A DNA stretch of 64,000 nt from Datnioides undecimradiatus (Eukaryota > Chordata > Actinopteri > Lobotiformes > Datnioididae): assembly GCA_008933995.1 (NCBI GenBank), contig WARS01000013.1, forward strand, positions 984,721 to 1,048,720, read 5' to 3'. The notes below the pieces were generated by a model that did no database searches, was not told the DNA's origin, and saw only the letters and a program-made list of their open reading frames with translations. Both the position numbers and the translations under genes were made by a program. Position 1 is the first letter of the stretch; each line of letters opens with the position of its first letter. Shown here piece by piece: positions 25,999-55,355 of this stretch.

Positions 25999-26940
25999 TC
26001 ATTTGTCACTGGACTCCTGATTGTCCGCTGACGGTTGGTCTTGCTCAGCTGCACACGCGATCTTCGCCTTGACCTTCTTGTTGGAGGAAATGATAAAGTA
26101 GGGGCTGAGAGAGGCGTAGCAGGAGGAGAAGAACACCCTCATATCAGCCACCACTGGCGACACCTTCGCCACAGTCAGCATGTAGATCCAGATCACGTTA
26201 TCAATCCCGAAGAAGACCACGTACAGAACCACCAAGGTGATGACTGTTTTGGCCGCCCTGGTCTCTGCTCCACCACCCTGAGAGCGACGGATCCCTCTCA
26301 CCTGGCGGCTGTGGCGGTGTAGAAGCAGCAGGATGTAACCGCTTGAGCCTACCATCAGAGCGACAAAAGCAAAATCCCTCCCAGAGACAGCCACCCCATT
26401 GATCACATAGGACAGGCTGTCTCTGAAGTCCACATGACAGAAGCCGAGGTTGAGGGTGAAGGCAGGAACGGTGCCATTACGTGGAGCCATGGAGAAGAAA
26501 GGGGCTGCGATGCAAATGGCCATGTTGAGGAGCCACAGTCCTGCGAAGGTTGGGAGGACCAGGGAGGGAAGTGCAGGCTTCAACCTGGACAAACGGGGCC
26601 CAGCGGGGGCGATGGTCACTGCCTGAAACACACTGAGCATGCAGGTGATGCACACTGACAAAGCCCGGCCGATGCGATAGGCGTAGATCACCACCTTACA
26701 GCCAGGATCATTCAGCAGGTCTTTCAGCCCAAACACAGTCATAGTCTGTGGGACGCAGCGAGTCAGTAGCAGCAGCAGGTTGGCGAATGCCAGGTGGCAG
26801 AGGATCATGTCCACAGGAAGGAGCTTGGGCTCGGTGTAAATGATGTGGGCGTACGCCAGCAGCACCACGGTGTTCCCCAGGATGCCCATACCTGTTTGCA
26901 AGAGGAAGGAGACCCCTTTGATGGTCACACACAGATCCAT
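25999..26940 (-). CDS. ora1: Olfactory receptor class A (V1R-like) receptor, probably ORA1 (313 aa)
   Basis: This is a single coding exon, ATG 26940 to TGA 25999-26001. It is a seven-transmembrane GPCR of the fish ORA/V1R family. TM1 has GILGN (Asn23). TM2 has LPVDMILCHLAFANLLLL. The TM3 end has MLSVFQAVTIAP, a V1R hallmark in place of DRY. The intracellular loop has LLHRHSRQVRGI. TM6 and TM7 have FGIDNVIW and CYASLSPYFIISSNKKV. The disulfide cysteines (DPGCK and GFCHV) and an extracellular-loop N-glycosylation site (NGT) are present. Family role: Gi/Go-type odorant reception in olfactory sensory neurons; zebrafish ORA1 is reported to detect 4-hydroxyphenylacetic acid. The frame stays open 6 codons upstream without an ATG, across a likely acceptor, so this Met is the start. 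Assignment to ORA1 rests on the MDLCVTIKG start and the head-to-head partner. The family is certain; the member is not. Confidence 0.9.
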   Translation of the reverse strand: MDLCVTIKGVSFLLQTGMGILGNTVVLLAYAHIIYTEPKLLPVDMILCHLAFANLLLLLTRCVPQTMTVFGLKDLLNDPGCKVVIYAYRIGRALSVCITCMLSVFQAVTIAPAGPRLSRLKPALPSLVLPTFAGLWLLNMAICIAAPFFSMAPRNGTVPAFTLNLGFCHVDFRDSLSYVINGVAVSGRDFAFVALMVGSSGYILLLLHRHSRQVRGIRRSQGGGAETRAAKTVITLVVLYVVFFGIDNVIWIYMLTVAKVSPVVADMRVFFSSCYASLSPYFIISSNKKVKAKIACAAEQDQPSADNQESSDK

Positions 26941-27200
26941 GACAACCAAGGCCTGCAAGTGTCATGATTTGCAAAGAAGACAGAGAATCAAATGTTATAA
27001 AAACACTGCGCACAGGAAACAAAGTTTGCTTTCATCAACTTTAACAGAAACCTAATATAACAAGGCAGCCTGAATAAACCAGGTCATCGATAAGATGACT
27101 CTCACTGAAAATGATACTCACCTGCAAAGTTGCAGATTAAAAGTAGATTCAGTTGTGCATGAACTGTTTAATAGACTGTTTAATTACAATTTATAGTCTT
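26941..27200 (-). other. ora1: Candidate 5' noncoding exon and short intron of ora1
   Basis: A consensus donor CAG|GTGAGT ends an exon at 27122. An acceptor (ACTTGCAG) opens the coding exon at 26952, 12 bases before the ATG. The implied intron is 169 bp (26953-27121). The 5' end of the exon is not known. The pyrimidine tract is moderate. Confidence 0.45.
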
Positions 27201-31107: not shown

Positions 31108-31424
31108 GTGAGGGGACAGAGGCAGTCATCTGAATTGATCTCAAGTAATTGGAGGCCAAGGGGAGAGCAGTCAATGGACCATGAAAAACAGATCCAACAG
31201 CCGCTACCTGTTTGCAACTATAAGAACACAAACACCCCAACTACTTCAGGAGAGAGGGATCAGGGACAAGGTCCACTTCAGACCTTGTTATCTTTGACTG
31301 CTTTCAGGTAAGGGTGTAAATGATTGTTCTGATGAATGCTACCTATTGATTGATATGTGGAAACCTGAGAAATGTGGTGTATTTAATAGGTAAAATTGCC
31401 TTGTGCTCTTTTCTTTTCCTGCAG
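31108..31424 (+). other. ora2: Candidate 5' noncoding exon and short intron of ora2
   Basis: A donor TTTCAG|GTAAGG ends an exon at 31307. A strong acceptor (CTTTTCTTTTCCTGCAG) ends at 31424, two bases before the ATG. The implied intron is 117 bp (31308-31424). The exon start is not defined; 31108 is only a lower bound used here. Confidence 0.55.
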
Positions 31425-31426
31425 GA

Positions 31427-32377
31427 ATGTCATCAGACGAGTTTGTCCGTGGGATGCTCTATCTGTCCCTCACCGTTATAGGGGTCCCGGGTAATGCTGC
31501 TGTCATCCTGGCATTCCTCCTCTTGCTGTACCAGGAGAACCAGCTCCTCCCAGCTGATGCCATTGTCTTGCACCTGGCCTGTGTCAACCTGCTGGTGGTG
31601 GGCGTTCGCTGTCTGCTAGAGACCCTGGCCTCCTTCCGCCTGTCTAATGTCTTTGGAGACGTAGGCTGTAAGTCTGTGATATTTGTCTACAGAACATCCC
31701 GTTCCCTCTCCATCTGGCTCACTTTCGTCCTGAGTGCCTACCAGTGCCTGAGCATCGCCCCTCCCGGATCACACTTTGCCTCCGTCCGCACTGTGGTAGC
31801 TCAATACTTGGGCTTTGTGTTCCTCTTCTTGTGGCTTGTCAACACCTGCATGAGCTCAGCACCCATCCTCTTCTCCTTCGGCAGACAGAACGACTCCAGC
31901 CTGACAGACCACGGCATCAATGTAGAATTCTGCTATGTTCAATTTCCCTCAAAGCTGTCCAAGGAGGCAAACGGGGCAGCTCAGGTGGGGAGAGATGTGG
32001 TGCCCATGGCCCTCATGACTCTAGCCAGTCTGATCATCCTGGTCTTCCTTTACAAACACAGCCAACAGGTGAAGGGGCTTCGCAGCAGCAGCGGTGGTGG
32101 GGCCGAGCAACGAGCTGCCAAAGCTGTGGTTGCACTTGTGACCTTGTATGTGGTCCTCTATGGGGTGGATAACGGGCTCTGGGTGTACACTCTCACCGTG
32201 AAGAAGACCATGAGCTCCTCGCTGTTCTCTGATCTGCGTATATTCTTCTCCTCACTCTATGCGGCCCTGAGCCCCGTGGTCATCATTGCCTCGAACAGGA
32301 AGGTGAATGGCAGACTGAGGTGTGCGGTGAGGGAGAGGCCTATTCAGGAGAAAGCCACAAGTCTTTCTACTATATGA
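31427..32377 (+). CDS. ora2: Olfactory receptor class A (V1R-like) receptor, probably ORA2 (316 aa)
   Basis: This is a single coding exon from ATG 31427 to TGA 32375-32377. The open frame extends 8 codons upstream only through a splice acceptor, so those residues are not coding. It is a seven-transmembrane V1R-like GPCR. TM1 has GVPGNAAVI. TM2 has LLPADAIVLHLACVNLLVV. TM3 has FVLSAYQCLSIAPPGS. The TM5/loop has YKHSQQVKGLR. TM6 has YGVDNGLW and TM7 has YAALSPVVIIASNRKV. Paired cysteines (DVGCKS, EFCYVQ) and an NDS glycosylation site lie at the positions used in ORA1. It shares with its neighbour the GGGAE-RAAK-V segment before TM6. Expected role: chemosensory receptor in olfactory neurons. It is divergent from ora1 and about 4.5 kb from it, the arrangement known for the teleost ora1-ora2 pair. 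Only the member number is uncertain. Confidence 0.9.
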   Translation: MSSDEFVRGMLYLSLTVIGVPGNAAVILAFLLLLYQENQLLPADAIVLHLACVNLLVVGVRCLLETLASFRLSNVFGDVGCKSVIFVYRTSRSLSIWLTFVLSAYQCLSIAPPGSHFASVRTVVAQYLGFVFLFLWLVNTCMSSAPILFSFGRQNDSSLTDHGINVEFCYVQFPSKLSKEANGAAQVGRDVVPMALMTLASLIILVFLYKHSQQVKGLRSSSGGGAEQRAAKAVVALVTLYVVLYGVDNGLWVYTLTVKKTMSSSLFSDLRIFFSSLYAALSPVVIIASNRKVNGRLRCAVRERPIQEKATSLSTI

Positions 32378-33576
32378 GGACTGCTGGGACGGCTGATGAC
32401 TCACAGGGTGGCAGAGGAAGCCAAGATGATGGGGACAGAAATTTTCTAAAGCCTGGGTCATGTATGGGTCAGCCTGTCTTTGTCCATGTCTGCTCTGTGA
32501 ACGATATTCCAGGAGACACTTTTCTTTCCTCTGGATGTGGTTTTGAGCGGTTGTGAATTCACAATAATGATGTTTTTCCTAATATTTATGAAATATCGTG
32601 CTTGTGAGACTTTACACATATGTTGTGAAATAGGTGATGAGGGTTTGGCACCTGTAGCTCTGGATGAGATGCTGTAACCGAGGTCAGGGGGAACCTATCG
32701 TCTCACTGTCTATAATTAAGGAAGAAAACTGTCATAACAACCCTGTTACTCAATACAGGCCTGCATGAATCCCTGTTGATCTGGCGCTACGTTGCTTTGT
32801 TTGTTTATTCGTTATGTTCCCTCCATCTTAATTGGATGGGAGAATTATAGCCGGGTGACTCAGTAGCTGTCAAATGACTTCCAGCTGCCCATTTAGCTAT
32901 AATTAAAGCTTTGAATAGAATCTGGTAAATGTCCCGTGCTAATGAGGCAGGTTAATTGTCCCACAGTGAATTGGTTAAAAACCTGATGGGAAAACTATAT
33001 TCTTTAGAAAAATAAGGATGAAAAAGATGTTCATTACTCAGTACTACTCGATACAATGCTGACAATGTGCTGCATGTCTGACTTCTTTGGGTTTAGTTAT
33101 AAGACGAGGAGACTTTAGGGGCACAAAGCTACTTCTTGGCACGAGCCTCTCAGAGTTTGCTGTGGATGTGGCAAACGTGGGAATTTAGGAGTCATTATGT
33201 AATTGCCATGTCGTATAGAAGCAAGGGCAGAAAGACAGGGTGAGGACATAACAACCTCTGTGAGTGACAGTCCAAAAGACATAAAGTGGGGCTGCCAGCA
33301 CTCTGTGATCCTGCAATAACTCTAAAGTGCAATCAGTGCAGCGCTACTCAACTGCTGTCGCAATGCAGGTGGGGAGGAAGAGGAGAAGTCCTCTTTCTGT
33401 GCTTGTGCAGAACTGTTGCATTCACCAGCAAGTTGACATCAAAGGATATTAAAGGCCATACAGTAATGTTGATCTTTTGTCAGCGAGCAACATTCACTTT
33501 AATAGTAAAAGCCCGAACCATTAAAACCCTGCGAAAAGTGACTATTTTTTAGAAAGCCCCCTCCAGATGACAAGTT
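32378..33576. other. ora2-mir-205 interval with a CNE-like block
   Basis: No coding exon is recognised. It holds the ora2 3' UTR (an ATTAAA near 32902 is one possible signal). A block at about 32820-33000 is rich in AATT/TAATT homeodomain-type sites and free of repeats, and looks like a conserved noncoding element. Conservation was not tested. Confidence 0.4.
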
Positions 33577-33658
33577 CCATGTGTCTTACTCTTCACACCA
33601 CTGAAATCTGATTGACACTTTACACAGACTCCGGTGGAATGAAGGATAGAATACATGG
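33577..33658 (-). ncRNA. mir205: microRNA miR-205 precursor
   Basis: The minus strand holds a complete hairpin. The 5' arm (33625-33646) equals the mature vertebrate miR-205 over all 22 nt, starting TCCTTCATTCCACCGGAGTC. The 3' arm (33587-33608) reads GATTTCAGTGGTGTGAAGAG, close to miR-205-3p. The outer stem pairs CCATGT (33658 inward) with ACATGG (33577 inward), and the loop region matches the family's spacing. miR-205 is an epithelial microRNA that in mammals represses ZEB1/ZEB2 and is transcribed from MIR205HG under p63 control. It is convergent with ora2, 1.2 kb past the ora2 stop. The primary transcript must start at a higher coordinate, and I cannot place its promoter. Confidence 0.97.
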
Positions 33659-35736
33659 ATGGTTTCATTAGAGCGGCGAGCGCGCTGGCGCCTCCAGTGA
33701 GGAATCACCGGGAATGAAGTCGTTGACACCGCTGATTTCCCTTCGACAGTTTCAGTGATGTCATTCTCTCTTTTTCTGTCGGCAAAGAAGTGGCAGATTA
33801 GTTAAAAGGAACAAATACATGAAAAACAGGTTCCATTCATGCGTACGTTCATGTCACTTTCTGTGTGTGTGTGTGTGTGTGAGAGTGTGTGTGAAAGGTG
33901 TGCCGGGCAGGCCTCTCCCAGCACAAGACAGGACCTGTTTTCACTGTTTTCCATCCTTCTGGAGTCTTTTGAGCCCAGTGAAGGCAGGGTGTTGTTAAAC
34001 ATGTAGAGACCAAACCCATACAAATGTAACCCTCTATTAATGCCTCTCTCTCAAATCACCAACCATTGTCGCGTTTCCCCTGCAAACCGTCATTCTGCAG
34101 CTAAAACAGAACTTGCAAATAGCTGATAAATGTATTCTGTTGTCATCTGTTTAACCTCCAGCTACACCTGATCTGCTTAACAAGGTGAAATACACAAACT
34201 ACCAAGAGAAATAACACAACAAAGCACCCGTGTCTGACTTTTTCCGACAAAATAAAGCTACAAGCACTAACTTTTGTGTTTTTTTGTCTATAAATAGACA
34301 AGGCGCACAGCACAAACCTGTCAAAAGACACACATGAATAAAGCTGTCAACTTGTCCAGAAGGGTCGGTTAAATGAAGCCGAAGCGTTGCAGTAAATCCC
34401 TCCAGCCGATCAACCCCTGCAGTGCCTGATGTCAGTCTGTTTACCTGCACCAGGTACAGGCATTTTTGTCCCCCGTGTCCACCAATGGCAACGCAGCAGC
34501 AGGTTTAAACCTCGCCCCTTTTCTGCCTTGCAGCCAGTCCACACCCTAATCTGGCCCTCCTTTTTTTTTTTTTAAAAACCCAACCCTCTCCTCCCCCGCA
34601 GAAAACTTTTCAAATTACACAAACATCAGAATCAGCAGCGGTAATCACGATGTAAATGTGTGGAAATTTGTGTCGGCGGGGGCAAATGGACAGCTAATAT
34701 GGTCAAACACGCAAACAGTGTCGACAAGCGTAATTAATCAATTCATCAGCCTCAAAAATGTAATTCTCAATAAACTGATAATGACATGAGAGCATCTGGA
34801 AATCATCATTAACCTGTTTACATCTAAATAATCAACTACACACAGTAACCTTGAACGTTCTTCTGGATATTAATCCCATAAACATCTTCTCTCTGATGTT
34901 TTTTTCCAGTGGAGAGTAGTTCCGGCTGACTATAGCAGCTGGAAACTTTAGGGCTTATTATTGTGGTGAAAATGTAATAAACACATCCTGCGGTACTTTC
35001 AAAACCCAAATTTTATGGAAATGACAGACGTAATAAGCCCTTTTTATGTTTGCTGATACCGTCTTTGCCTTTCCTTCAAAGGGATGTTTCTTTAGGCGTG
35101 TTGTTTAGAGGATTTATTCCCTGTTTGAGTGAAGCTACTGGTGGAGAATGGTGGAGAATGCCATAGAAAAACTACTTTTAAGTGAATCAACTCATTTAAT
35201 TTTGTCTGAAGCAGGTAGAGCCAGAGGTTTTAATTCAGTGCGGGGCCCATTTAGGTGTCTCCTCTGGACACAAATATAGGAAATATTTAAATTATGTGAA
35301 ACCACTGTGCTCTAAACTCTCCCTGGGAATACCTGCTGAAAGGTGACACGAGTTTAACATGATTTATATTTTAGCTTTTGCACTCTTAAGTTACAGAGTT
35401 GTACGTGTGTGACCCATTTCCATGCATCCACCCAGTTTAACTGATTCCCTCAGACAGAGAACAAACACATTCGTGCCTCAGCTTGCCTGGAATGCTGCGC
35501 TGCACGTCAGCAAGGAGCTCTGTATCCAAGATGGTGAGAAGGAGTTTCACAGAGTTAGGAGGAAAGCTTGGCCTCTTCTGTCCCAATGCGTCCAACGAGT
35601 ACTTCTTGATTTACACTGACAAGCACCTATTTTGTTGAAAAGGCGGAGATCCAGGTTTAATATCCCCCAAAATCTGCAGATTCTTGGATTTAACAGTTGA
35701 CTTTATACTTCTACCAACATGATTTTACAACACAAG
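33659..35736. promoter_or_regulatory. Upstream flank of mir-205, possible host transcript/enhancer region
   Basis: No coding exon is seen. A GT microsatellite lies at about 33861-33895. A T13-type run lies at about 34561-34573. A repeat-free AT-rich block (about 34617-34840) has TAATTAATCAATTCATCA-type homeodomain sites. The miR-205 primary transcript should cross this stretch on the minus strand. This is inference from position. Confidence 0.35.
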
Positions 35737-36130
35737 GAGGAGTTTGACATTTTGGGAAATGTAGCATATTCATTTCCAACAGTTAGATGAGAAGATCGAT
35801 ATTACTGTCTCGCTTTACTGCGTTAGCGGGAGCCAGATGGGAAAACAGCACGCCTTACTCTGTACAAACAAATCTCTAAAGCTCGCTAATTAAAACATTA
35901 CATCTTGTTTGTTTGATCTGTGCAAAGACTGAAGTGTGAAAAAGACATGTAGGGATTTTACAGGTAGTTATTTTGGACATGACCAGGCCGGTTGTTGGCC
36001 CCTGTTTCCAGTGTTTGTGCTAAGCTAGGCTAACTGGCCACTGGCTGTTCACATGTACTGTATGGACACAAGAGTGGTATTGATCTTTCCATCGAAGACA
36101 GGAAACACACTTTTGTTCCAAATGGTAACC
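35737..36130 (+). mobile_element. MITE-like palindromic element, copy 3
   Basis: It opens GAGTTTGACATTTTGGGAAA, has a TTAGATGAGAAGATCGATAT subterminal motif, then a GCTAAGCTAGGCTAACTGGC core, and a degraded inverse end. This is the best-preserved copy of the family in the window. No ORF is present. Confidence 0.7.
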
Positions 36131-36410
36131 TTTTCTTATATTAAATTCAATGTACAATAGGTGTAGCTAATAGAGAGGCTACAAGACAAAGTCAAAATGC
36201 TCTCAAAAGACAAAAATTAGAAATGCAGTTTGAATAAAGATACATTTCGTATCTGTCCAACTCAGTACGAGCAGTGAAACTACTACTCTGCCATTACAAT
36301 GCCTGCATAATCTGTGACAGGGAAGCTGATCAGCAGATTACGCCCATTTCCAGTGTGCCAGTGAGGACATGGACCATAGTGAAAGAGGGTGGGGGTGGGG
36401 CTCGAGGCTC

Positions 36411-36443
36411 AAAGGCCCCGGGGCAGCAGCTTGCTGCAACTCC
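36411..36443 (+). repeat. Short GC-rich repeat, copy A
   Basis: The 19-mer AAAGGCCCCGGGGCAGCAG recurs exactly at 38601-38619, with similar following bases (GCTG/GATGCT..AACTC). It lies in otherwise AT-rich noncoding DNA. Confidence 0.85.
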
Positions 36444-37639
36444 ACCACTCTCAGCTAAGATATGCACTGCTGTGCTGAGACTTGAAATACATTCAAGATG
36501 CACTGCACCCCATCCCGCAGTGAATACGGAGAAGAAAAAAAAAGAGAAAATAAGAGGAAGGAGCGGAAAAAAAGGTGGGGTTGCTGCGTTAGTAGAAGAA
36601 AACATGGAAATGTTGTCATATGAACTTCTGAGAAACAACTGAATATTAATAATCTTTCACCAGAAAGATGGCAGTCACAGTTTGAACTGGCTGAACTGAA
36701 AGCTTAAACCTGCCCTGACGAGAACCAGGTATCAGTATGTGCCGTGCCAGTGTTCTTTAAATATACGGCTTTTCATTTATTACTCAGGGGCGAATTAGCT
36801 TTTCTTTTATCTTTATTCAGGTAGTCTCGCTGAGATCAAGATCTCTTTATAAAGAGAGAAGTACATTTCAAGGGAGAAATAAATGTATATGAGGGAAGAA
36901 CGGGCTTCAGTGACATGACAGTTTGCAGAGATTTATCCTTTGATGAGCCAATCCAGTATGCCCCAGGGACGTTGATTCATGCTGAATTGCTGTGTGAATG
37001 TATAAACCCAGGACCCAGATTTTAATCTCTTTAAATGATAGCAGTTAAAAGGCAGCTAACACACTGGGGCTCAAACTCGGGGTGTGAATGCTCAATTTAA
37101 CTCCAGGAGCTGTGTCTGCTGTAGCCTGTGCACTTCATTTCTTTACTGTGAATGAGAAATGCCTAAGAAAATAAACCGAATGCAAAACTGGCTGCAAAAT
37201 GTCAGCGACATCCCCAAAATATCACACAACACTGTGACATTCAGGTTCCGTCACACAAATGAACGACATATATTAAATCTTGTATATGAATTACTTTGCC
37301 TGGTGCTGATTTTGAATTATGCAGTGTGATTACATAAAAAAATGTGTTATTGCATTTCATATTTGTGGAAGCTTGAATGCTGTGTGTGTGTGTGTGATGT
37401 TGTTGCTGCAGATGCAGACGCTAGACCCAGTATCTGAGCTCTTTGGGGGATATACAGCACACACTACACCTGTGAGGTAACTTTGAAATCAACTCAACAG
37501 TCACAAGTATAGATTTTTCTCTTTCTTCCTGTAGCAAGAGTTGTTATGGAGCACAGTTGAGCGTTCACTCATAAGTCTGTAGGCTCCGCCATGCTCTCAG
37601 TCGCTGTGGCCTTCTACGAAGCTAAAGATGTTGCAACCT

Positions 37640-37994
37640 TTAGAAAGAGCTGGTCTAGTTGTTTCTTGTAAGACTTAGAACAGAAGATTGATGTCAGTCT
37701 TATGTCTGCCCTTTAACCAACACTGCCAGCAGCTTGTTTGCATAGCTTAGCATAAAGGCTGGAGACATTAGGAGAACAGTAAGCTTGGCTCAGTCCATCA
37801 ATAACACCACCTATCTGCACCTCTGCAGCTCATAGTCAGTCTCCCAGTTTGCTGCTTCTAGTGTGTGCGCCGAGCTAAGCTATGCTAACTGGCTGTGGCT
37901 TCATTAAACCATTCGCCTACAGTGGAATTGATCAATTCAGCCGACTCTCTGCAACCAGCTTACTTCCCAAAATGTATGACTGCTCCTTTAAAGG
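37640..37994 (+). mobile_element. MITE-like palindromic element, copy 4
   Basis: It has the core GCTTAGCATAAAGGCTGG and the later GAGCTAAGCTATGCTAACTG, and ends CTTCCCAAAATGTATGACTG then CTCCTTTAAAG. The start border is decayed and approximate. Confidence 0.6.
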
Positions 37995-38600
37995 TAACTG
38001 CCTGACGTAGTTGTCTCCAGAATGCTGCTCATTCACAAATATTTTGATCACTTAATCGTTTTAAATTGGTTCTAAATCAAGCAGGAGACACAACAACGGC
38101 CTTTCATCGAAAAGTAACGTAACCATCTTCATGTCAAATCCACACTGCAGCTATAACTAGGATCCTGCCCTTTATCTCTCCCATCATCCCCCCCTAAATG
38201 CCACAAAGGTGGAATTTTCCACGAGCTGCTTCCCTCTGTTTGCTGTGGAATGCAGGCAAGATGGAGCAAGCCTGCAGAGTACGGTATCTCAGCAGAAACA
38301 GTATGTTGAGGTGCTTAGCTTGTGCCCAACATGTCCAGCTACTTAACTCTCCCTTCAAGCTATTACCTAAAACGTAGCTCAGGTCTGTAGTGTTGCTAGT
38401 TGCCAGTGTTGCTGGATCCTGCAGAGCCTCAGGTTATGACCAGTAATCTCCCCCATCTGCATCCTCTGATTACCTCCACTATCCTGTTCATATAGCCCGA
38501 ATGTCGATATCATTTATTTTGCTCAGTAGTTGGATGCATTAAGTAATTTCATGTTTTTCATTTTATCAATATGTTTGTGCGCCTTCAGTGACTCTCTCAA

Positions 38601-38634
38601 AAAGGCCCCGGGGCAGCAGGATGCTTTAACTCAA
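38601..38634 (+). repeat. Short GC-rich repeat, copy B
   Basis: Exact 19-base match to 36411-36429, about 2.2 kb away in the same orientation. The matching tract continues weakly for about 15 bases. Confidence 0.85.
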
Positions 38635-39779
38635 CTCTAAATCCAGAGCTGTTGCAGACATTTATGACCGCTCTATTAAACAGTCGTAGATTGCTATCTG
38701 TGCCTCAGAGCAACAGACCTTGTAAAGTTATACAACGTGGGCATGTGCTGACATAACAACCACACATATTTCATCTTGCCACTACCACCCTTCACACAGG
38801 TGAAGGAAGAGCAGGATAATGTGTGGAGAGAATGACGAGAACATCGCGCCTCTTTGGAGCCAGGGTTACTGTACTTTACGGAGCACTTAAATGTATCACA
38901 CGGCTCTTCACTATTCATGGGATGTATATAAGATGACAAATTGCCCCAAGTGGGGAGTTGTTGGCATGTGATGATGAGGAGCATTACTCCAACACACTAT
39001 GAAAAATTGAGTCTCCTTGTGCTTTTTCAGAGTAAGTGGTGTCACTCCACCCACTTAGAGCTGAATAATAGATCTGATGGATCCTCTGTGTATCATACTG
39101 CTGCTGTCAGGGTAATTACAAAAGACACGAGTGGAGCACTCACACAGCCCTGTCAGGGTTTCACACCGACTTGGAGGCTGAGATGATTTTTCTGGTCTTG
39201 CTGAGATGGATCGCCTCACAATTTAAAGACACAGCCACTGGTTTTGCTACAGCTGCCGCACTGTGCTCTAAATCCCAAAACGTCGCAGCAGCTCACTCTG
39301 GACTTTTGTGCTGAGTTTTGAAAACATTGTTTGTGAGCCTGGAGGACATTTTGGGGAGTTTGGTTTGCTGCAGGGTGCTCAGGCAAATCAGGCAGTATTT
39401 GGAAATGGGGGAGAAAAGAGTGCCACCTGTTGATTCTTTGTGGTAGTACAATAAAGGGGCAACTTGAATAGAGCTGGTCACAATATGTTTGTCACAATAT
39501 GACAAACATATCTAGTTAATATCTATGGGTGAATGTGTTCCACTGTTATGCATTATAAGACTCTTGTAAAACAAAAACTTCCATGAAAGGAAGTCTGAGA
39601 GAATCACATAGCCCTGCACTCTGTCAATCACTTTTTATTTCCTGTTGAACAACAGATTTTACCCTATGGTGTTTCACAGGATGATTCTACTGAATTACAA
39701 TAAGCAAGGACAAATAAGGGAAGCTAAATTTTGAGCAGTTATCAATGAACTAATGAGGAAAGAATGAGGCTTTGAATAG

Positions 39780-39930
39780 CCTCCAAACTCCCCAGATCCC
39801 AGTCTGATCGAGCATCCGTGGGATTTGCCTTAACGGGTCCAGTCCACAAAGGCATGAAGGCCCCACCTCGTAATCCATGTGACTCAAAGTATCTGCCACA
39901 AATAGCCTGATGCCTCAGGGGATCAGAGTC
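39780..39930 (+). pseudogene. Tc1/mariner-like transposase C-terminal fossil
   Basis: Frame from 39780 reads PPNSPDPSLIEHPWDLP then stop. After a frameshift it reads KAPPRNPCDSK. This follows the Tc1-family block 'PPNSPDLNPIEHLWD...APPRNLQDLK' around the third catalytic acidic residue. It is short and clearly decayed, with no terminal repeats recognised. Confidence 0.65.
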
Positions 39931-41704
39931 AAGCCTGGTGAATTAACAGTTAGTTTTCATTTATTCCAAAGTTTATGCTCCTTAATATAAAGTGTACCTA
40001 AATTAGTGGTGCTTAGTTTTATCCCTAAACAAAATAAACTTTACATGCATGGCTGGATTTGCTTGTTTTGGGGGTAACAAATTGCTGTTGGGCCCCTGCT
40101 GCCTCTGAGTCCCTATCATGTACAGTGTACACAACACACTATAGATGGAAGCTTCATTATATTTTGTACCAGAGAGCTACACAGAAACCATCCAGTACGC
40201 CTGTTCTACCTGGACCCTGGTTTTGTATAAACTACTCTTGAGGTAATTTCATGAAACCTATTTTAGTACAGAAATAAGTGATCATGAGTAGATTTACAAC
40301 TTTTTATTGTAGGTTTGTCCGCAGCTCGTTTGGAAGTAATGCGATTTAAAAAAGCAACTGACGCACAGAGAGCTCTTGGAAACTATGATTTTCTTTGGGT
40401 TGATTTTGGAATTGAATGTCTATATTTCCTTGTACAAGGCATATATTCATAATGAAGGCCAGAACAGTGAAGCAGCTCAAAATTCATATAACAAGATTCA
40501 TGTTTTGGATTTGTCTAATTTTGAGGAAAAGCTGTGGCTGCATTAACGGGGCCCAACTTACAGAACTTTCCTCCTCCATAATATAGAGTACACCCTCAAA
40601 GTTGTTTAAGCTTTTGGAAGAATCTTTACATATTAAGTTGTTTCTCTGTCACATCTCTACTTTTGTGACAGGCAGCCTCCGTCTAATACTGGTCCCAACT
40701 GGACGCCTAATTGGTCTCCCTCACCAAACAAGTGCTAAAACACTTCTAATCAAGCTTTGCCAGCCTTGTCGCCGACACACTTCGGTGACCATTGAGTAAC
40801 AACATTGTCAAGTCAAAAAGACAAACATTAGAGAAGCGCGTACTGATAGGACTCAGGAGCTGTTTGAGCAATTTCACTTCAGCATTGAACTGATGAATGT
40901 GATTCAATCATGTTTATGTCATTATATGTGATTGTATCACTCTATTAAGCCTGCCTCTCATTACATATACACACCTGGATTGTCATAAAATCATGTACAG
41001 CACACGGACCTGCTTGTAGGAACGTTTGATGTATTAAAAAGCCACGATCCTCCCTGTACCCCAACCAAGGTGATTTTATAATATTAGAAAATAACACAAA
41101 TAAGAGGACAGCTGAAGAGCAGAGTTATGGTTGCATTCATGATAATCAGGATATTTTTGGTAAGTGGGCACTAGTTCTCTGTCACAGGTTTTGTAGAACT
41201 CTCAATGCACTGAATAATGTATTGACTCATTTGTCTGGAAGAGCGCCTCAGTAAGCCATGCGATCAATGGCACAGCAGCAGTGCCAGATTAGCCTTTGTA
41301 GAACTGCCAGTTTTTATTTCTTTGATGCACAGTCTTGTCTGTCATAGCATCAGAAAACTCCTCTGATGATAATTTATGAATTCATGTCCCGGGAGCGAGA
41401 TGATAGTCAAGCAGGCGTTGGTCAGCAGTGGTGTCTTCATTCTTATTTTCACCAGTGCAAGAGGAAAATCCATTGTGTGTGCAGGAATACAATGCTACAT
41501 GATGAACAATACACTGCTAATCTGTCATTGCAGGTTTGTGAGATCCTCGAGATTTGTAAAATGTAGCATGATGCTTATTTCTCTCAAGCAAACATGATGT
41601 AACCACAGTGGTCATTTTGAGAGGAAGGAAGTGAAAAAAGGAATTAAACATGAATAAAATATGAAGCAGATGATTTGTTTGATTAGTAGACAGTTTATAG
41701 ACAT

Positions 41705-41930
41705 GCTAGTGTCTCTGTAAGCCTGAACAATTGTGCTTTGAGCTAAATGCTAACTTCAGGATACTAACAAGCTCACAGTGAAATTGCTTATATGCTGATG
41801 TTTAGCAGGTAGCTAAATGGGTGCCATGCTTATTTTTGTGGTTTGGCTTGTTAGCATGTTAACATTTGCCAATTGGCACTGACCACAAAGCAGAACTAGA
41901 AGAAAAGTCACCAAAGTTACAATCCATCTT
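41705..41930 (+). mobile_element. Fish interspersed repeat ('GCTAAATGCTAA' family), forward copy
   Basis: It contains TTTGAGCTAAATGCTAACTT, GATGTTTAGCAGGTAGCTAA and TTGTTAGCATGTTAACATTT, a repeat arrangement common in percomorph genomes. A related copy in opposite orientation is at 44440-44745. No ORF is present. Confidence 0.55.
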
Positions 41931-43828
41931 GAGTGGAATGTGAAATACTTTATTCACTTATTGGCAATCTATCAGATCTATCACAGATCACTGTATACCA
42001 GTATCACTGTGTATGGAATGCTATAAACTCAGAGATAAAGTCAAATTTTATCCACTTAAAAACACTAGCATTCATCAAAGTTGCCTGGCCTTCAAGAAAA
42101 ATGTTCATACATAGGCTTTTAAATGGTCTTAAAGTAAAGAAGTCACCGACTGTAGCACTTGAAATTGTCAAACCAAACAGTTTTGGGAAACCCAGATGTT
42201 GAGCGCCCACTGGAGAGCTCCACCATGAACTACATACCCTCAAAGGCACAACAGAAATGCTGAAGTGACCTAAACTCGCTAGCAGTTGGTATAACAATGT
42301 CACTTCTGTGCAACATACAGCCTTGTTTCATGAGTTCAACCAAGGAATGTTCATTTCCACCTGGACAAATCACCACACACTTGCATAATTCAAGGTTCCT
42401 ATTGTGCTGGATGGGAACCAAATCTAAAGGAGCAGTTAAAAAGTCCCTGCACCATAAGAACTGCGACTGCTGCATGAAAAGTTCCTCCAGTCTGAAAACT
42501 ATTGATGCAATAAATTTCTGTGTTTTTAAACCTGGACCACATTTTTCCCTCTAAATGGTGTCCAGATAACTACTGCAGACAGCTATGTTAGGAATTGGTT
42601 CAGTACTGAGCCAAACAAGCTATAATGTACCATAGAGGGTAATTGCACCCAGTGTGCGTCCACTAAAAGTGCTCATTTTTGCCACTGACGTACTCTGATT
42701 GTTGTTTAAACTGTGCGACTAACACTACATAACTGTAGCTACAACTATTTTTGAGGTCAGGTGTTTACAGCTGTTCTCTTAAAACACTTCCAGTACCTTC
42801 ACTTTCACTTCACTGGTACGGCATTAATATAGATACAGCAGTGTTGACCTTCGGACGGATACAGGTGTCGCAAGAGAATACAAGAACCTATCCATCTCAC
42901 TTAACTGAAATCAATAAACCTAGAAATAAGCGCTACAGATAATTACACAGCAGTAATTGTTGTCTCTATTTTTATTAGAAGTAGCAACAGCATTTCCTAG
43001 TTTATTATTATTCATAGCGCCACCTGTTTTCCTCAGACCAGACACTTAGTTTCCAAATTTCTGTGAAGAAATCACCACCTGGTTTTGGAAACAAGAGAGA
43101 AGACAGATGCATGTTCAGTGAAGAGGTGAGGTGAAATTGTCATAATTTAATCATAAGTTCAGTCTTGCTTCGTGCAAACATGTAACTACAGCAAGGGCTT
43201 GTATTAGGGTGGAAGAGGGGTAGTAGTAAACGTTAGGAGAAATGAAGTGGGTTTATTTATTCATCTAGTCTATAATGGAGACATGAAAGGAGGAGCAGAA
43301 TGTACCTGCTGGCAATCAACATGTAATTCATAGCAGTACGTTCAAGTAAAAAGTGTGTATGTCTGTTTAAACTGGCTTGTAGAGCAGCTGCGCAATGGCA
43401 CCAAGATCAAAATACAAGCCCTGGTCTACTTATTCGTTCCCTCCAATGACCAACCTCTCTTTAGTCTTCAACACACACAAACATACACACACACACATCT
43501 GGTCCATTTATGTGGATGGTGTGAGACCCTTTCACCTCAAGCTCCCCGCTGTACCTCTGCACCCCTATGGCCCTTCAAGGTACACTCATTAACAGTAGAG
43601 GGCATTGGACACATCACCTCATCACCTCCCCACAGGACCACAGCCCTCCACCTGACCTTGGAAAACGTCCAAGCCAGCAGCGCATCAGATCTCAGGAGGG
43701 GAGAGAGGTTCGGGTTATGGGATGAAGGTCAGCATACTGCAGCTTACTGCATGCTGAAGAGCTCTGCTGCTTTGGAGGCAGGAGGCTTTTTTTAACGGTT
43801 TCTCTCTTTCTACCTCTGATGGAAAAAC

Positions 43829-44240
43829 GTGATCTCTGAGGATACATCCTCGCAAACATTTTGTATTCTTTTCCGGCTTTGGTTTCAACCCAGGTTCATA
43901 ATTGATGGCTTATTTATGAGACATCATCAGAAATGCAATGTGACATTGACTGTTTTCCCTGGAAATGCTCCTACATATAGATCATACAGCAGGGCTACCA
44001 TTCACCGACACTTTCATCTGAAAATACGATCCTGCTTTCGCGAAACACTGAGTAGGCGGAGGCAGAGAAAGAAAAGTCCATTAATAAGGAGTCTAATGTG
44101 GAATCGACCAGTGGGTCTTTTAATGATTACTAGCCGTTCATTGATCAAGCACTCCAAGACGGGAACAAAGAGCGCTTTGAGGGGGGACGAGCTCTCTGCT
44201 CCTGCCTCTACTTCACAAATCAGTAATCAAACCTTTGAAA
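43829..44240. promoter_or_regulatory. CNE-like block
   Basis: This block is non-repetitive, moderately GC, and contains clustered homeodomain-like sites (CCATTAATAAGG, TTTTAATGATTACTAG, TTCATTGATCAAG). The long open frame across it on plus has no recognisable domain. It is listed as a candidate conserved element, not a gene. Confidence 0.3.
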
Positions 44241-44439
44241 CTCAGCCGTCTGTTCTTGGTTTAAAAAACAGTCAAAGGCTCATCCACCATGCTGTATAAA
44301 ACTTCAGCCAATGATATCACTTCCATTCGGAGACAGAATTTTCATTCAGATAATCCACCGGCAAATGTTGGACACATTTTTCTTTTTATTTACTTAACTG
44401 CTAAGTACTTATTTGCCAGCAGCCTGGCTTCAGGGCTGG

Positions 44440-44745
44440 TTGGTCTCCATCTTTGGTTCACATTGATATATCTCAGGAACTGTCAGATATTATCATTGCC
44501 ATGATATTTAGTTCACATGATCATGGTCCTGAGAGGATGGCTCCTACTTACTGCTGATTGCAGATTCCCCTACTGTGTCCATTTGTTAAGTTTATGTCCA
44601 AATTTCAGTGAAAATAATGACTAATAATGATAATTAGCAAATATTAAATGCAGACGAGCTAAACCAAGATGAAGAACATGCCTGCTAAACGCCAGCATGT
44701 TTGCATGCTGAGGTTTATATGTAGTGACTGTAACTGTGTTAATGC
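44440..44745 (-). mobile_element. Fish interspersed repeat, reverse copy
   Basis: It contains CCTGCTAAACGCCAGCATGT and TTTGCATGCTGAGGTTTATA, the reverse complement of the layout at 41705. The flank has the ATATCTCAGGAACTGTCAGA type segment often seen with this family. Confidence 0.5.
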
Positions 44746-45580
44746 CACTGGCATACTTTTAGTCATGTTCACGTTCAGGGTTTTCCCTTAAGCTGCTCGA
44801 ATCAAAATTCATACATTAGACACGGAAGGTGCCGCTTGTTGTGATAAACTCAGAATGATCAGCTGACCCTGCTGTTTCCCACAGATCTGCAGTGTTTAGA
44901 TCTCACAGCCTGCAACTTTAAAGTGTTGGCTTCACTTTGAGCTGCAGCAGCAGTTCACAAACCAACTGTGTGCCACCTGCCAGCACCAAACAGACAAACA
45001 GACACCAACTACAGCCAGGCACTTGCCTTTGGGGATAGTGGGCGCCGAAAAAAGAGCCGGGCCAAACAGAGGGCAAAGGTTGGATTTACATCTATCAGCT
45101 CCATGTCTAGCTCCATGTGAACCACCCCTTCTGAGCAATCATTGTAAGCTGGGAAGTCTGTTAAAGACCTGTCTTTAGTTGTCACAAAGGTAATGTTATT
45201 GCCCCTGCATTATCAGACTATGTATGGCTAAAAAGCTAATTTTGTACATTGCACGAGTCACCAAGAAAAATGAGAATTCAATAGGAGACCATGACTGCGT
45301 GTGTCAAAGAATGTATTCCTGCAGCACAAACAGGGCAGCTATTGATTGGAATGCATGAGTCTCCCGGATTCTTGTTTGGTCTGGCGCCAAAATGTGTTTT
45401 GCCATTGCGTTTGTCTGCCAGTGCGCCCCCTCCTCTGACCTCTGGATTTGTTGTTTTGCCGCTCCGATATTGTTTTTCTCAAAATAATGCTTCACAGTTT
45501 GAAAAGAAAGCAAGCAGCAGGAAAATAACCTGCCAAATTGACATAATTTTGTTATTTTCCTCTCGGGAGTACGACCAAGG

Positions 45581-45652
45581 TTAAGACACACCGGGGCGAG
45601 AAACACACTTTTAGTGTCCACAGACAATGTTGTATTCCCGCCGCTGTCTTAA
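45581..45652. repeat. Nested inverted repeat
   Basis: TTAAGACA at 45581-45588 pairs with TGTCTTAA at 45645-45652. The inner CACTTTTAGTG segment pairs on itself near 45606-45616. It could fold as a 72-nt hairpin with imperfect GC-rich middle pairing. Confidence 0.6.
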
Positions 45653-46499
45653 TTTGAGGAGATTTCCGATTCTGACGTTAGAGTCATATTGATGTTGTAG
45701 TGTGAAGGGATTTACAGATGTGGCCACTTTCATGAGCTCTAACCACCAACAGCGCCCTGATTTTTGCAGCGCTGCAGTTTTTTCACATCAAAAGGTCAAA
45801 AACTGCTAAGAAAGCATAATGGATTGCAGCACAGCACAAAAGTGACACCTGCCAAATTTGAATGTATATTCTCTGGTTTGTCTGCAATATGTCACATTTG
45901 CAATACATTACATTGTTCGGCGTCAGCCCTCTCTGAGAAAAACAAGCTGTTCCTTGCTACAGTGCATTATGAAAGGTTGCAAATGGGCTAATTTGCAGCT
46001 TTGACAGCACCAGCCTCAGCAAAGGCGGGTAGTAATAGGTTTTGAGGTGCCGCTTCAGCGACTGCTGTGATGGGAACGCTGTGGCTGAAAGTAGGCATAG
46101 GTCAGGCTTCTCTGGAAACTCTGACAAATTAAAAACAGAAAACCTTTGACATTTATCATGCTAGGAGTCTGCAAAGGTCATTGCCTGTACTTGCTGCTTT
46201 CATTTTCATTCCCCATCCCCTCTGGACATGTTTTGCTGTGATTGCTTATAGCCCGCTGGAGCTGCAGCAGGGGGAATCAGGAGCTTTGTGGTTTCAGTGA
46301 AATACTCACACGATGACAACATCTCTCATACAAGAAGCCATATATCTGATAAAGCGTAAACAGAGAGGTAAACGTATGGAGTCTCCCTGCTGCTGATCCC
46401 CTTACTCTTCTTATTTATCTACCCTCCAAGTGACGGGCCTGCTGTTAACGGGACTATCATGATGATGAGTTATCACATCAGTTTCATCAGGACGATATT

Positions 46500-46860
46500 T
46501 AAGCAAAGAGAGCGAACAACCACGGCCATGTAGTAACACACCAAAATTCATTTCTGATTTCCTCGTGATGCATCATTCCACACCATAAGCACCGGAAACT
46601 TGTAATCCCGCTGGACCATGACTGCCTCATTTAAATGTTAATATAATTCCCATCATTCATAATTTAGTGCACTCCCTGGCATTTTCCGTTCATCTCGTTA
46701 ATGCTATCTTATGTGACAAGCCAATTTACTGCTGGAGTTGACCAAATTGCTTTAGCATTGTAATGCTAACGCCATAATAAATCATTGACATACTGTCCCT
46801 CCTCAGGTAATAAAGCAAAATAATAGAAAGTTATACACGTTCACGGCGTAATCCATTTTC
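46500..46860. promoter_or_regulatory. CNE-like AT-rich block
   Basis: No repeat or ORF signal is present. It is dense in TTAATG, CATAATTTAG and GCCATAATAAATCATTGACA type sites resembling Hox/PBX or POU sites. Conservation is not tested. Confidence 0.3.
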
Positions 46861-48140
46861 ATTGATTTCCCTGGTGTTACACGCAGCATGAGGCTTCTGC
46901 TGTTAAGTCAGCCCGGAGAAACATTACATCTGAGGAATGTGACAGAGATTGGCCTTTTTTGCCCTCTCGTTGTCAGAGGTGGCATTAGCGGGGCTGAAAG
47001 CAGTGTGAGAGATGACACAAGCAGTGCCGCGAAGGCGAATCAGACAGATTATAGGTCTGAAGAGAGAGAGGAGAGGGAGCGGGGCCGGGCTTAATGCTGG
47101 TAGGTGTCATTTTGTGTGACCTTTGTGGGAATTACCACTGTGCATGACCCAGAGCATGTCTGCTTGTCACTGAGACAGTCTGGGGCTTCTGCTGCATTCA
47201 CCCGCCCCCACCCCACCCCCCACCATCCTCCCTCTGGCAGACACAGCGGCCCAACTCCTCCTGATGCCCGACTACCTTCCAATTGACCTGATCACGGCCA
47301 ATAACTCTAATAATCCCTAAGTCCTCATTAGCTCCCTCACACAACTTGAACTAAAATTTGAATTCTGCAGGCTCCCCGCGTGTCTGCGAGGTAGCTTAAC
47401 CTTTGATAATATGTCGGCACGTCTGAGCAGAGAAAACCCGGGATTAGTCGACTGGTGGAAGCTATTGTGGGAGAAAAGCAGCATCAGAAGTTGATCATCG
47501 TTTAGGCGGGGGAATATGAATGTGGATTCACCCAAGATGCAGGCAGTTGAAGCTTGAAATCCTGTGATTAAGACATGTAATCCTATGGTAATTGTAGAAT
47601 CTCTCGCTGGAACATACGTGCTATTTCAAACCAGGTACATCAAATCTGCTTTAAAGGATGAGTCCTCTGCTGTCTTTAAGTCAACAAATGCGATGAAAAC
47701 ACCAATATTATAAACATGTCCCACTTCTTGATTATGGATGAAGCTCTCAACCACCAGCTCACCAGCTTATACTGAATGTGCATGTTAAATCTAATAACAA
47801 ATATACTTTTTATACTTTGAACTTCAGCACAGGAGCAAAAAAAAGGTTTTCTCACACAGCAAATGTAACTCAGACTCTAGGAAAAACTGTAGGGAAAATG
47901 TGTGCTGGCTCTTCTTGAAGTAAACTGTACCCACGCTCATTGAAACAAATCAAAATACCATCAGGTTTAACACTGTGGCTGAACTGTAATGGCTTTCAGA
48001 ATACTAAAGCTGTCAGTGGCACAGAGGAAGAAGCTGCACCACATCAAACTTTTGGCTACGGAGGCTACTGGGATCGAGTCGTTGCTGGTTTTGTTGGTTC
48101 GGGTCTTTTAAGGGAAAACAGATTAACAGCGTCCCTCTCT

Positions 48141-48293
48141 GTTAAAGTAATAGTCCAACACTTTGTGAAATAAGCTTTGGCTCCTGGCTGGGAGTTAGAT
48201 TACCAGGTTGATGCAGCTCTCAGACATGAGAGTGGTATCAATTTTCTCATCTAAGTCTTTGCAAGAAAACAAGGAGTGTATTTCCCAAAGTGG
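48141..48293 (+). mobile_element. MITE-like palindromic element, copy 5 (shortened)
   Basis: It begins GTTAAAGTAATAGTCCAACA, then the CATGAGAGTGGTATCAATTT and TCTCATCTAAGTCTTTGCAA motifs, and ends GTATTTCCCAAAGTG. The middle found in the other copies is missing. Confidence 0.7.
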
Positions 48294-50069
48294 ATAATTT
48301 ATAAGCTGGAATATGTTGTATTAGCATGATATTAGCGGTGCATGAAACAGTTTGAAGAAATGATGTGTTTCTTTAGGACTTCTGCACCCACAGTAATAAC
48401 AAATCCTGAACAAAGACGATTTTGAAGCAATGGGGAACCATGATGGTGGTGAGGATTGAAGGGGGGGGGGGCTCTATTAATTCGTGCCACCGTGCAGGGC
48501 TATGACAAAACCAGCTTGAGCTGCAGCCGATGTGCTCAGTGGAAGCCACCGTCACATGCGAGCATAAAATCACTAAGCTTGCAAAGAACGAGGCGCAATT
48601 ACTTCAAGGTCCTAATTAAAACAAATTAAGTGAGACAGAGAAGGAGACACAGGGGGAGAGACAAAGAGGGAACAATGTTTGGAAGTTAAATTGTCATTTT
48701 CCTCCAAATAATGCCTGTAGACTCGCATCAATCCCAGGAAAAATCTTTGAAGAAACCCGACATAAATAAATTTTTTCCTCCCTCAACATGTTTCTCCCCG
48801 AGGAGGGTTTTCATATATTCATGACAGCACTGTGTCTATATTTTCTCCTCCCTTCACATCCCTGTCTGTATTTGATGTCCTCCACAATCCAGCCTTTGGA
48901 CACAGTGTGTTTTGAGAGCGAGATGAGAGGAAATGATTCATTCATCAGACGAGGCCCAGGATACAAATCCCAGCTGACCCGCTGATCAGATGGTTGATAT
49001 TGCAGCTCTTCCTCGGAGCAGGTGCCAGGCCACGCTTATTAGGGCTTTCAGTGGAGCGCGGTGCGCGGGTCATCATCTCTCCTGTAGCGGCTCTGTGTGA
49101 CGGCAAACACAAGCTAGCCTCACCTCGGAAAATGTGCACATCGCACAGCCTAATTCAAATGTCGAACCAGATAAGGAACAGCGGGGGTGATAGTATGATA
49201 TGAGGGCTGGACGGGCCTGTCAGAGCGGTAATTATTTTACTCCAAGAGGAAATATGGATTTTGCCTCAGGTGTGTGTTTTCTTGTTTCTGCGGGCATTCT
49301 CTGGGTGAATGTGTCACATCAGAACTTTGCAGAGGCAGATATATACTCATCAAAACTTTTGTGATTGCTTTGGACCGGCAATTTCAAAACACAGCGCAGA
49401 GGAAGATGACTGAGTGCAGCTGTCCGTGGTGCTGAAATTGACATACAAAGATGTGTGTGTGCGTCTCTGTGTGCGTGCGTGTTTGCTTTCCCCCCGTCTG
49501 AAGGTTTGACACCGGCAGACATTACATTGCATTTAATAAAATAATTATTCCAGCGCGGTTTTAGATAATAAAAGGCCGATCAACACGGTGTCCATCAGAA
49601 GGAAGCGGCCAATGAAAAGATGAAAGAGCTGCGCCAGGAGGCAGATGAAAAACCACCTGCAATCATGTTTTTGATGTATTTTTATTACTTTTTATGATCA
49701 AAACCATTGTTCACTCGAGACTCATCAGCATTTTTCCTCCCATTACTTTCTCAAGTGTTGTTTTCTCTAATTCCTGCTACACCTGCAGCACACGGGATGA
49801 GAGCCGCGCTTTGCCGGTCAGGTTATTCGGGTGCACTTCCTCACATCATGTGATTCATTTTCCCTGCTAATTAAAATTCCATTTGTCTAACTTGACGCCT
49901 CCCTCACATCAGAGCCTTTTATTTTTATTGTGATTAGCCGAGTGAGGGGATAACATGTTCATTAGACCTCATTTCGGCTCAGGCTTGTGAGTGAAAACTG
50001 GTTACACAGTGGTAACAGTTCCTGTCAGCACTGAAGGTAAGAGGAGAACAGCCATGTGTTTTGTGTGAA

Positions 50070-50357
50070 GGGAAGGTTGTTGTTGGTCCCTGGTTTGATT
50101 CTTGATCAGGTCCTTTCTGTGTTGAGCTTGCATGTTCTCTCCCTCTGGGTGCTCCGGCTTCCTCCCACCACCCGAAAGCATGCGTGGTGGGTGAAGTGGG
50201 AACTCTAAGTTGACTGTGGGAGAGAATGTGGGTGTGTTTGTTTGTTTGTCAGCCCAGCGACAGACTGGTGACCTGTCCTAGGTGTACCCTTAGTGTACCC
50301 ACCCCTGCGACTGTGAAAGGGATAAAGCGGTTACAGAAAGTGGATGGATGGATGGAT
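50070..50357 (+). mobile_element. SINE with (ATGG)n tail, copy A
   Basis: It contains GGTCCTTTCTGTGTTGAGCT, CAGCCCAGCGACAGACTGGT and a TGGATGGATGGATGG end. It is homologous along most of its length to 55356-55660. The head is decayed, but a GGTTTGATTCTTG B-box-like motif remains. Confidence 0.7.
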
Positions 50358-50870
50358 CTAATCTGCAAAGATGCTTTTAATTACGGGCACAAATATGAGC
50401 TAAATGCTAATACTCAGGTTCCATCTTATTTTAACCTGTGATTGCGCTGATCTGCATTAACTAGCATAGAATGCAAACTACAGCCAAGCTCATTAGGTTT
50501 GGACAAAAGGGAAGTTTGACTGATGATGGTGCTAAATGCAGAGTTAAGATCACTTTATATTAAGGAGCTGTTTCAGTTTAAGTATATTTTTTAATTATTT
50601 ATTTATTTTACATGCAAATGTTTGAAGCCAGTAACCTGATGCATTTTCCCAAATTCTGAAATCCATTTTGAGGTTTGTACTTTGGAATATATCTTTGTTA
50701 TGCTTCCTACACAGCACATATCAGAGGAAATACTCTACTTTACTGTACTGCATGCCTTTATTAGATGGTTTACTCATTTACTTCCCCAGAGCTGCTAACA
50801 CGGCTGTAGACTCTTGCTATGTGTCTGCACAGGAGGTGGAGTGGGAGCAGCACGTTAGGAGTAGCACGTT

Positions 50871-50933
<63 letters not shown>
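50871..50933. repeat. (AGC)21 trinucleotide repeat
   Basis: Sixty-three bases of pure AGC/CAG/GCA, flanked by GTAGCACGTT repeats. It gives poly-Ala, poly-Gln or poly-Ser frames that are artefacts of the repeat. No gene is recognised around it. Confidence 0.97.
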
Positions 50934-53900: not shown

Positions 53901-55355
53901 ATGCTCTCATACTGATGGCATTACATCACACCGTGGGATGTTAACTTTATCGTCATGTTTCGATGTTATTACGATAGTTATTTTCCTTGTATTTAATAGT
54001 TTTATGATGGCACGGCTCTCTGCAGCTAACATTTTACGGCCTGCAAATTACAGCGTAGTTAATAATTAGATATTTTTTATTCTTTACTTCTTTACACAGT
54101 AGCCGACCAAAACAACAATGGAAGCAAACAATTCTGAGCGCTGATCAACAAGAGATGCAATATATATTTGTGCACTAATGTTATTGCTGTGCAGTATTCA
54201 GCTTATATACAGCATGTGGAATATTGATTGTACCTAATGTTTTTAATTGATCATTTGAAGTCATTTTATACGTTTGTATTGTGATATATAAGTCACTTAA
54301 TGAGCCAAATGACTGACTGCATCAGAACAGCATCTCCGGTTTATTATCATTAGTTGGTTTGTATTTTATTTGATCTACTTCGCTCACTTTTGATTGACTT
54401 TAATTCTTTTTTTTAAATGTTTTTTTAATGTCATTCCCATGAATTTCCTTGTATTGCATCTGGTTTGAAAAAGTGCTGTGCAATGAAATGGCGCAGCCTG
54501 CACACATGATATAAGTAACACACTTACAGGCTGACACTGTACACCAGAACTAAAGCAAGAGAAGAGAACGGGTGGTTAGAGGTTGAAGGAGTTACAACAC
54601 CGTGTTTACAAGGGAGGTGAAAATAAATAAGACTGTGAGTGTTTCTTAAACAGCCAATAATCTATTTCATAATTAGCAGGTACTGCCATATGACCTTGTT
54701 GCTAGGAAACAAGGCAGGATAATTGGAAAAATGGAGGAACTATGTTGACATACAACATTTATAGTGTCTGCATTTTAAGATTCTAATGAACCTAGAGAAC
54801 ACCTCGGGAAATTACACAGTTAAAACGCATATATGATTACATACAATAATATTGCATATTAGTGTCATATTAGTGTTTATATATAACAATATATATTGGT
54901 GTTGCTGGGGAATTCAACATTAGAGTCTGGGACAAAAGGTGTGCCCTAATGAGTGTAGCTCAAATGTGCAAATGTGTACATATGTTTGGATGATGTAAGA
55001 ACAAAGACATGTATTTATTTTTAAAATCTGGATGTAATTCTGGGGAATAGTGATGAAGTTGTGTGATTAATTTACAATTCATTTGAACAAAACTGACGAT
55101 AGAGAGGAGCCAAGGTGAACAATTACACAAGCACGTACCTTTAATGGATAAAACATAACCATGGAGACGAACTGACACATTCCCCACACCTACTGAGGAG
55201 CACAGCGTGAACTCTGCTGTGTGTACAGAACACTTAGTCTTTGCGTCAGGGCGGTCAGTACAAGAAGAACTACGAGAAGAGAGGTGCATCACCTACAGAC
55301 TACAGCATCAATTGTTTTGTCAATTATCTAACAGTTATTAAAGCTAAGTACAAAT

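Follow-up and report, generated by a model that had tools for sequence, protein, structure and literature searches.

The closest described counterparts of the locus analysed here are the Rfam family mir-205 (RF00656), the human MIR205/MIR205HG locus and, with regard to its position opposite a coding gene, the microRNAs at RTL1. In the human gene order, PLXNA2 is the neighbour of MIR205HG, with CAMK1G/LAMB3 on the other side of mir-205. A review (PMC7667162) places human MIR205HG at 1q32.2 and describes MIR205 with CpG islands and p53/p63 elements upstream. Self-targeting antisense microRNAs have been described at RTL1 (PMC6805670). PMC8851675 counts PLXNA and CAMK1 among the families of a chromosome region that was duplicated, with no mention of mir-205, and PMC4159003 lists miR-205 in zebrafish regeneration only. 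For the olfactory receptor genes ora1 and ora2, PMC4728799 reports a head-to-head pair in most fish examined, including elephant shark and coelacanth, with further ora genes between the two in spotted gar and loss of the association in cod. The main text of that paper does not contain the term 'mir' (0 occurrences). One further paper reports that the ORA1/2 loci are not conserved among three teleosts. Within the open-licence literature we found no text naming both ora1 and mir-205, and nothing direct on mir-205 synteny or duplication.

Here, we describe a mir-205 hairpin in a 64,000-nucleotide stretch of DNA from Datnioides undecimradiatus (the window, C315 984721–1048720). The hairpin matches the RF00656 covariance model over its full length, has the family's 5p arm and shows no notable difference from the family; the Datnioides genome holds two copies. 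Like the human gene, it has the mature 5p sequence and a PLXNA2 neighbour, and unlike the human gene, it has its plxna2 coding start 38.7 kb away and a V1R/ORA pair adjoining it. As at RTL1, a microRNA gene lies opposite a neighbouring coding gene, but at RTL1 it is the imprinted mRNA itself to which the microRNAs run antisense, whereas any overlap of mir-205 with an ora2 mRNA is hypothetical.

Results

The mir-205 hairpin and its parts

Among the Rfam families, mir-205 was the only one to score above gathering in the 64-kb window: RF00656 matched the minus strand at 33654–33580 with 76 bits (E 4.2e-17, gathering score 55 bits), covering positions 1–75 of the 75-position model. The initial annotation had proposed a complete minus-strand miR-205 hairpin with an exact 22-nucleotide mature match, a near match to the star strand and a paired outer stem, and all of these were recovered (Table 1). 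The miR-205-5p 22-mer is present without a mismatch and equals the RF00656 family consensus; our query letters agree with the Rfam consensus line. An exact 22-mer is expected by chance 7e-9 times on both strands of the window if equal base frequencies are assumed, and searches of viral and prokaryote sequence collections with the same 22-mer gave 0 matches each, as expected. The star sequence used as query differs from the opposite arm at 4 of 21 positions and also fits two other window sites with 5 mismatches each; this match is weak by itself, and its weight comes from the placement opposite the 5p arm. The ends given for the 3p arm follow other species and are putative.

The minus strand from 33665 to 33570 was found to fold as proposed (−34.1 kcal/mol, z −4.84), with both arms and the basal stem paired and with none of 200 shuffled sequences folding equally well. 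The plus strand of 33570–33665 folds too (−31.1 kcal/mol, z −3.61, 1 of 200 shuffles as good) and reaches 39.1 bits with RF00656, under gathering; this plus-strand hairpin could conceivably give an antisense product, should ora2 transcription extend across it. The processing motifs of the precursor are not clean, in that C..C starts 21 bases after GTGTGAAG and the upstream UG is missing from its usual spot, as judged by eye. The window carries a genuine, well-conserved fish mir-205, an ordinary member of a known microRNA family.

Table 1 Features of the mir-205 locus, in window coordinates
Feature	Position	Strand	Basis or remark
mir-205 hairpin with paired basal stem	33577..33658	−	Rfam match, fold, arm comparison
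miR-205-5p, mature arm	33625..33646	−	exact match; 22/22 identical to second genomic copy
miR-205-3p (star) arm	33588..33608	−	match to star sequence, 4 mismatches of 21; 20/21 identical to second copy
Terminal loop between arms	33609..33624	−	diverged, 7/16 identical between copies
ATTAAA, possible ora2 poly(A) signal	33520..33525	+	about 50 nt before hairpin
V1R/ORA open frame, ora2	31394..32377, stop-to-stop	+	V1R profile; name inferred
V1R/ORA open frame, ora1	25999..26961, stop-to-stop	−	V1R profile; name inferred
Nearest genes on low-coordinate side			ora pair, phtf1/2, pfkfb, yod1
Gene-poor mir-205 to plxna2 interval	33659..64000, on to 72343 beyond window		ORF, Pfam and codon-usage scans

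A second mir-205 copy in the genome

A covariance search of the 581-Mb assembly gave two mir-205 loci above the Rfam cut-off, the window copy and one at C496:4742963–4743037 (82.7 bits); the other two rows of the search were the opposite strands of both loci, under the cut-off. Taken together, the two arms are identical between the copies at 42 of 43 positions (5p and 3p separately in Table 1), and the sides of the basal stem at 11 of 12 and 9 of 11, while the loop has diverged and the 200-nucleotide flanks agree at 40/200 and 48/200 positions without gaps (88/400), which is about the level of unrelated DNA. Since the arms stayed fixed while the loop and flanks drifted, this comparison suggests that the hairpin of the window locus is under selection.

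We compared the window by blastn with 200 kb around the second copy, which returned 34 rows at E values up to 1. The best row is the hairpin itself (33577–33659, E 1.1e-18), followed by 55465–55571 (E 2.9e-13), and the remainder, repeat-like rows aside, have E values of at least 1e-4. Both 55465–55571 and 50168–50352 are 72–81% similar to a place near 4838 kb on C496, 96 kb from the second mir-205, with 50168–50352 giving two matches that are weaker than that of 55465–55571; because one place on C496 takes matches from both segments, the similarity is probably that of a dispersed repeat rather than of a shared regulatory element. Over these 200 kb, convincing similarity was confined to the hairpin of about 83 bp, and no host-transcript exon or common enhancer was visible, in a comparison that is blind to an element retained at one locus only. 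Scanning 14 of 25 ten-kb stretches around both loci with cmscan detected the second mir-205 and one tRNA, and no other family above gathering.

Plexin genes beside both copies

On the high-coordinate side of the window hairpin, the next gene recognised is plexin-A2. Its first coding exon opens with a start codon at 72344 in window coordinates, 8.3 kb past the window end, and aligns with solved Plexin-A2 at 378 bits, against 269 for Plexin-A4 and 242 for Plexin-A1. None of the nine stop-to-stop ORFs of at least 120 aa between the hairpin and the window end matched a Pfam family above cut-off, nor did three shorter ORFs of the gene-poor stretch that were chosen by codon usage. A codon-usage scan from the hairpin to 72 kb found no convincing coding stretch; short exons may escape this score, which was trained on three frames and which some real pfkfb exons bring only to 9–11. 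Its top value between the hairpin and 72 kb is an AGC repeat (50873–50977), and a perfect (AGC)21 trinucleotide repeat occupies 50871–50933. One ORF of the gene-poor stretch resembled a plant elicitor peptide family at E 0.025, under cut-off, which we judged to be chance. The earlier view that the hairpin sits in otherwise gene-free DNA holds on the high-coordinate side and fails on the low-coordinate side, where an ora frame stops 1.2 kb away; the suggestion that mir-205 anchors the gene-poor region stands, this stretch being the mir-205 to plxna2 interval.

On C315, mir-205 (minus strand) lies at 1018 kb and the plexin (plus strand) begins at 1057 kb; on C496, plexin cytoplasmic exons (minus strand) lie at 4478–4502 kb and mir-205 (plus strand) at 4743 kb. 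The plexin and mir-205 are thus divergently oriented on either contig, and their order and relative orientation agree. The distance between them is 39 kb on C315 and up to 240 kb on C496, the latter measured from the cytoplasmic exons of that plexin.

About 15 plexin loci are present in the genome, and we compared six of them, taken from the seven best on one cytoplasmic exon; C471 was dropped because it nearly duplicates C472. In three cytoplasmic exons taken together, the C315 plexin is identical to the C496 plexin at 4478 kb in 171 of 185 residues, against 152–155 of 183–185 for the four other plexins, and an unrooted tree with 6 rows groups the C315 and C496 genes at a support of 99/98. 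The solved relatives listed for the C496 cytoplasmic exons include plexin-A1 and A3, with no A2 chain among them, which leaves this gene nameless by match; judged by the residues compared, the two are sister plexin-A2 genes. Each mir-205 copy has a linked plxna2 sister in matching orientation, so the best reading is that both copies stem from duplication of a single mir-205/plxna2 block. The block was probably duplicated in the teleost genome duplication, a date drawn from one species, and the event could conceivably be older than that, since the plexin tree covers 6 of about 15 loci, all of them from this species. Within the assembly, the C471 and C472 plexin matches have near-identical offsets and the same or nearly the same scores, as do those of C473 and C474, which suggests that C471 and C472 are haplotigs left in the assembly.

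The link of the window to human 1q32, which had been drawn from the hairpin, is borne out by plxna2 next to the window copy and its sister linked to the second, neighbours that make it stronger than the initial annotation could see. Orthology of the window mir-205 with the human 1q32.2 locus fits these data, which comprise one fish genome and the human gene order. Near the second mir-205, we also observed an slc26a9-like exon (87 bits, with SLC26A6 next at 61), exons of the haem transporter HRG, RasGEF exons whose nearest solved relative is Rap guanine nucleotide exchange factor 4, and integrin alpha exons (alpha-5 60 bits, alpha-V 58). On the human map, slc26a9 fits 1q32 while HRG, RasGEF and integrin alpha resemble 12q13, hinting at a chromosome join in the lineage at this neighbourhood.

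The ora pair and the low-coordinate neighbours

The two V1R frames score 202 and 141 bits against nearly the whole Pfam V1R profile; they are uninterrupted (320 and 327 aa, stop-to-stop), lie head to head on opposite strands and are 43% identical. We infer the names ora1 and ora2 from this pairing and from the V1R score, ora1 being the higher scorer. The stop codon of ora2 (32377) lies 1.2 kb from the hairpin, in agreement with the reported adjacency of mir-205 and the ora pair, and the two genes are arranged tail to tail, which is mildly interesting for a gene that is itself of a known kind. Of the remaining genes on this side, which in human has CAMK1G/LAMB3, yod1 was recognised by Pfam OTU1 domains, pfkfb by 6PF2K and His_Phos domains, and a phtf1 or phtf2 gene by PHTF1-2_N in two pieces (21291–21407 and 21984–22097).

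Searched against the whole genome, the 320-aa V1R frame matched three places, namely itself, its neighbour and a distant one, and none on C496. With the two ora frames as tblastn queries, the 200 kb surrounding the second mir-205 gave nothing at E up to 0.1. The adjacency of ora and mir-205 is found at one of the two mir-205 loci only. The distant V1R-like frame (C315:9004461–9005279, 342 aa, 25% identity) lies 8 Mb away on the same contig. When 13 pieces of window genes were searched by tblastn against the same 200 kb, a single hit was obtained (E 0.076, 16 residues), which was judged to be chance.

Promoter-type signals

Compared with the CpG islands upstream of human MIR205, the fish hairpin has no CpG-rich stretch, the observed/expected ratio over it being 0.56 and 0.60 in two 500-base windows against a background mean of 0.57. 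As to the upstream p53/p63 elements of the human gene, the nearest p63-like site in the fish lies 4.6 kb from the hairpin. Searching with a p53/p63 motif (at most 2 mismatches, spacer 0–1), we counted 2 p53/p63-like elements in 28–64 kb and 3 across the window and its flank (114 kb); around the second mir-205 there was 1 in 200 kb, and none within about 10 kb of the hairpin. By these raw counts, no clustering was seen at either hairpin. One of the 3 elements in 114 kb, with one mismatch, lies between the ora genes at 28862–28881.

Discussion

In our view, the window very likely carries a functional intergenic mir-205 gene, of which this teleost has kept two copies. The hairpin, the conservation of its arms, the second copy and the plxna2 linkage of both copies are directly established parts of this explanation. 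For the remainder, a pol II primary transcript would run along the minus strand towards lower coordinates, with plxna2 behind it, and would be cut by Drosha and then by Dicer; the 5p arm would be loaded into Argonaute and would repress seed-matched mRNAs in epithelia, as elsewhere. One ancestral mir-205/plxna2 block would have given rise to the two copies, probably via the teleost genome duplication, with the ora pair as a positional neighbour of the window copy only.

The lower Rfam score of the window copy (76 versus 82.7 bits) is what might be expected if it were a decaying duplicate while the second copy does the work, yet its arms have been kept at all but one position despite the drifted loop and flanks, and its fold is stable, which makes decay very improbable. 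The origin of the copies could also be sought in a small event, local or retro-type, that duplicated the hairpin instead of a block, in keeping with the finding that no convincing shared DNA extends past it. Neutral flanks would, however, be expected to lose their similarity over such times, and both copies have a plxna2 sister linked to them, oriented alike at the two loci, so that we give a small duplication very little credence.

The relation of mir-205 to the ora genes invites two readings that would add to a working mir-205 gene and not replace it. V1R/ORA genes mark sensory neurons. In one reading, which the initial annotation had raised as shared distal control, enhancers in the gene-poor stretch would drive mir-205 and ora1/ora2 in nasal tissue as a common regulatory domain, as their separation of 1.2 kb and the listing of miR-205 among 9 families enriched in the mouse olfactory system (PMC2204047) might suggest. 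The same paper confines the miR-205 signal in the mouse nose to non-neural respiratory epithelium, however, and the second mir-205 persists without a recognisable ora gene; no convincing element besides the hairpin is common to the two loci, although elements present at one locus escape this comparison, and the ORA1/2 loci are reported not to be conserved among three teleosts. Together, the mouse, locus and literature evidence, indirect for this fish, argues against shared activation, which we think most unlikely, and the ora genes look like positional neighbours of the window copy. A direct interaction of ora2 with mir-205 is conceivable only through convergent overlap: a long ora2 3' UTR crossing the hairpin would contain a perfect miR-205 site, and epithelial cells would silence leaky ora2 mRNA. 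The tail-to-tail arrangement, the RTL1 precedent and the lack of an AATAAA between the ora2 stop and the hairpin, where only ATTAAA occurs (32902, 33448 and 33520), speak for such a link; each of these three ATTAAA could nevertheless terminate the ora2 transcript ahead of the hairpin, and with the last at 33520, ora2 could end just before it. The 1199 nucleotides before the hairpin, moreover, contain no miR-205 seed site of 6, 7 or 8 bases; raw counts elsewhere were one 6-mer in the ora2 coding frame, and one 7mer-A1 and one further 6-mer in the 2 kb after ora1. Argonaute2 slicing is also reported to be impaired in most fish (PMC7765534). We therefore hold silencing of ora2 in cis to be a long shot, and it seems just as doubtful that, in fish that have kept ora2 and mir-205 side by side, the convergent pair helps to delimit sensory from non-sensory epithelium of the nose more sharply.

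A cis link to ora2, if proven, would matter more than the use of the hairpin as a landmark, unlikely as it is. As a landmark, mir-205 is firm, and it identifies the window's gene-poor half as part of the stretch that separates mir-205 from plxna2. With two mir-205 genes and matching plxna2 neighbours, this fish offers a natural experiment on the regulatory DNA kept by each copy.
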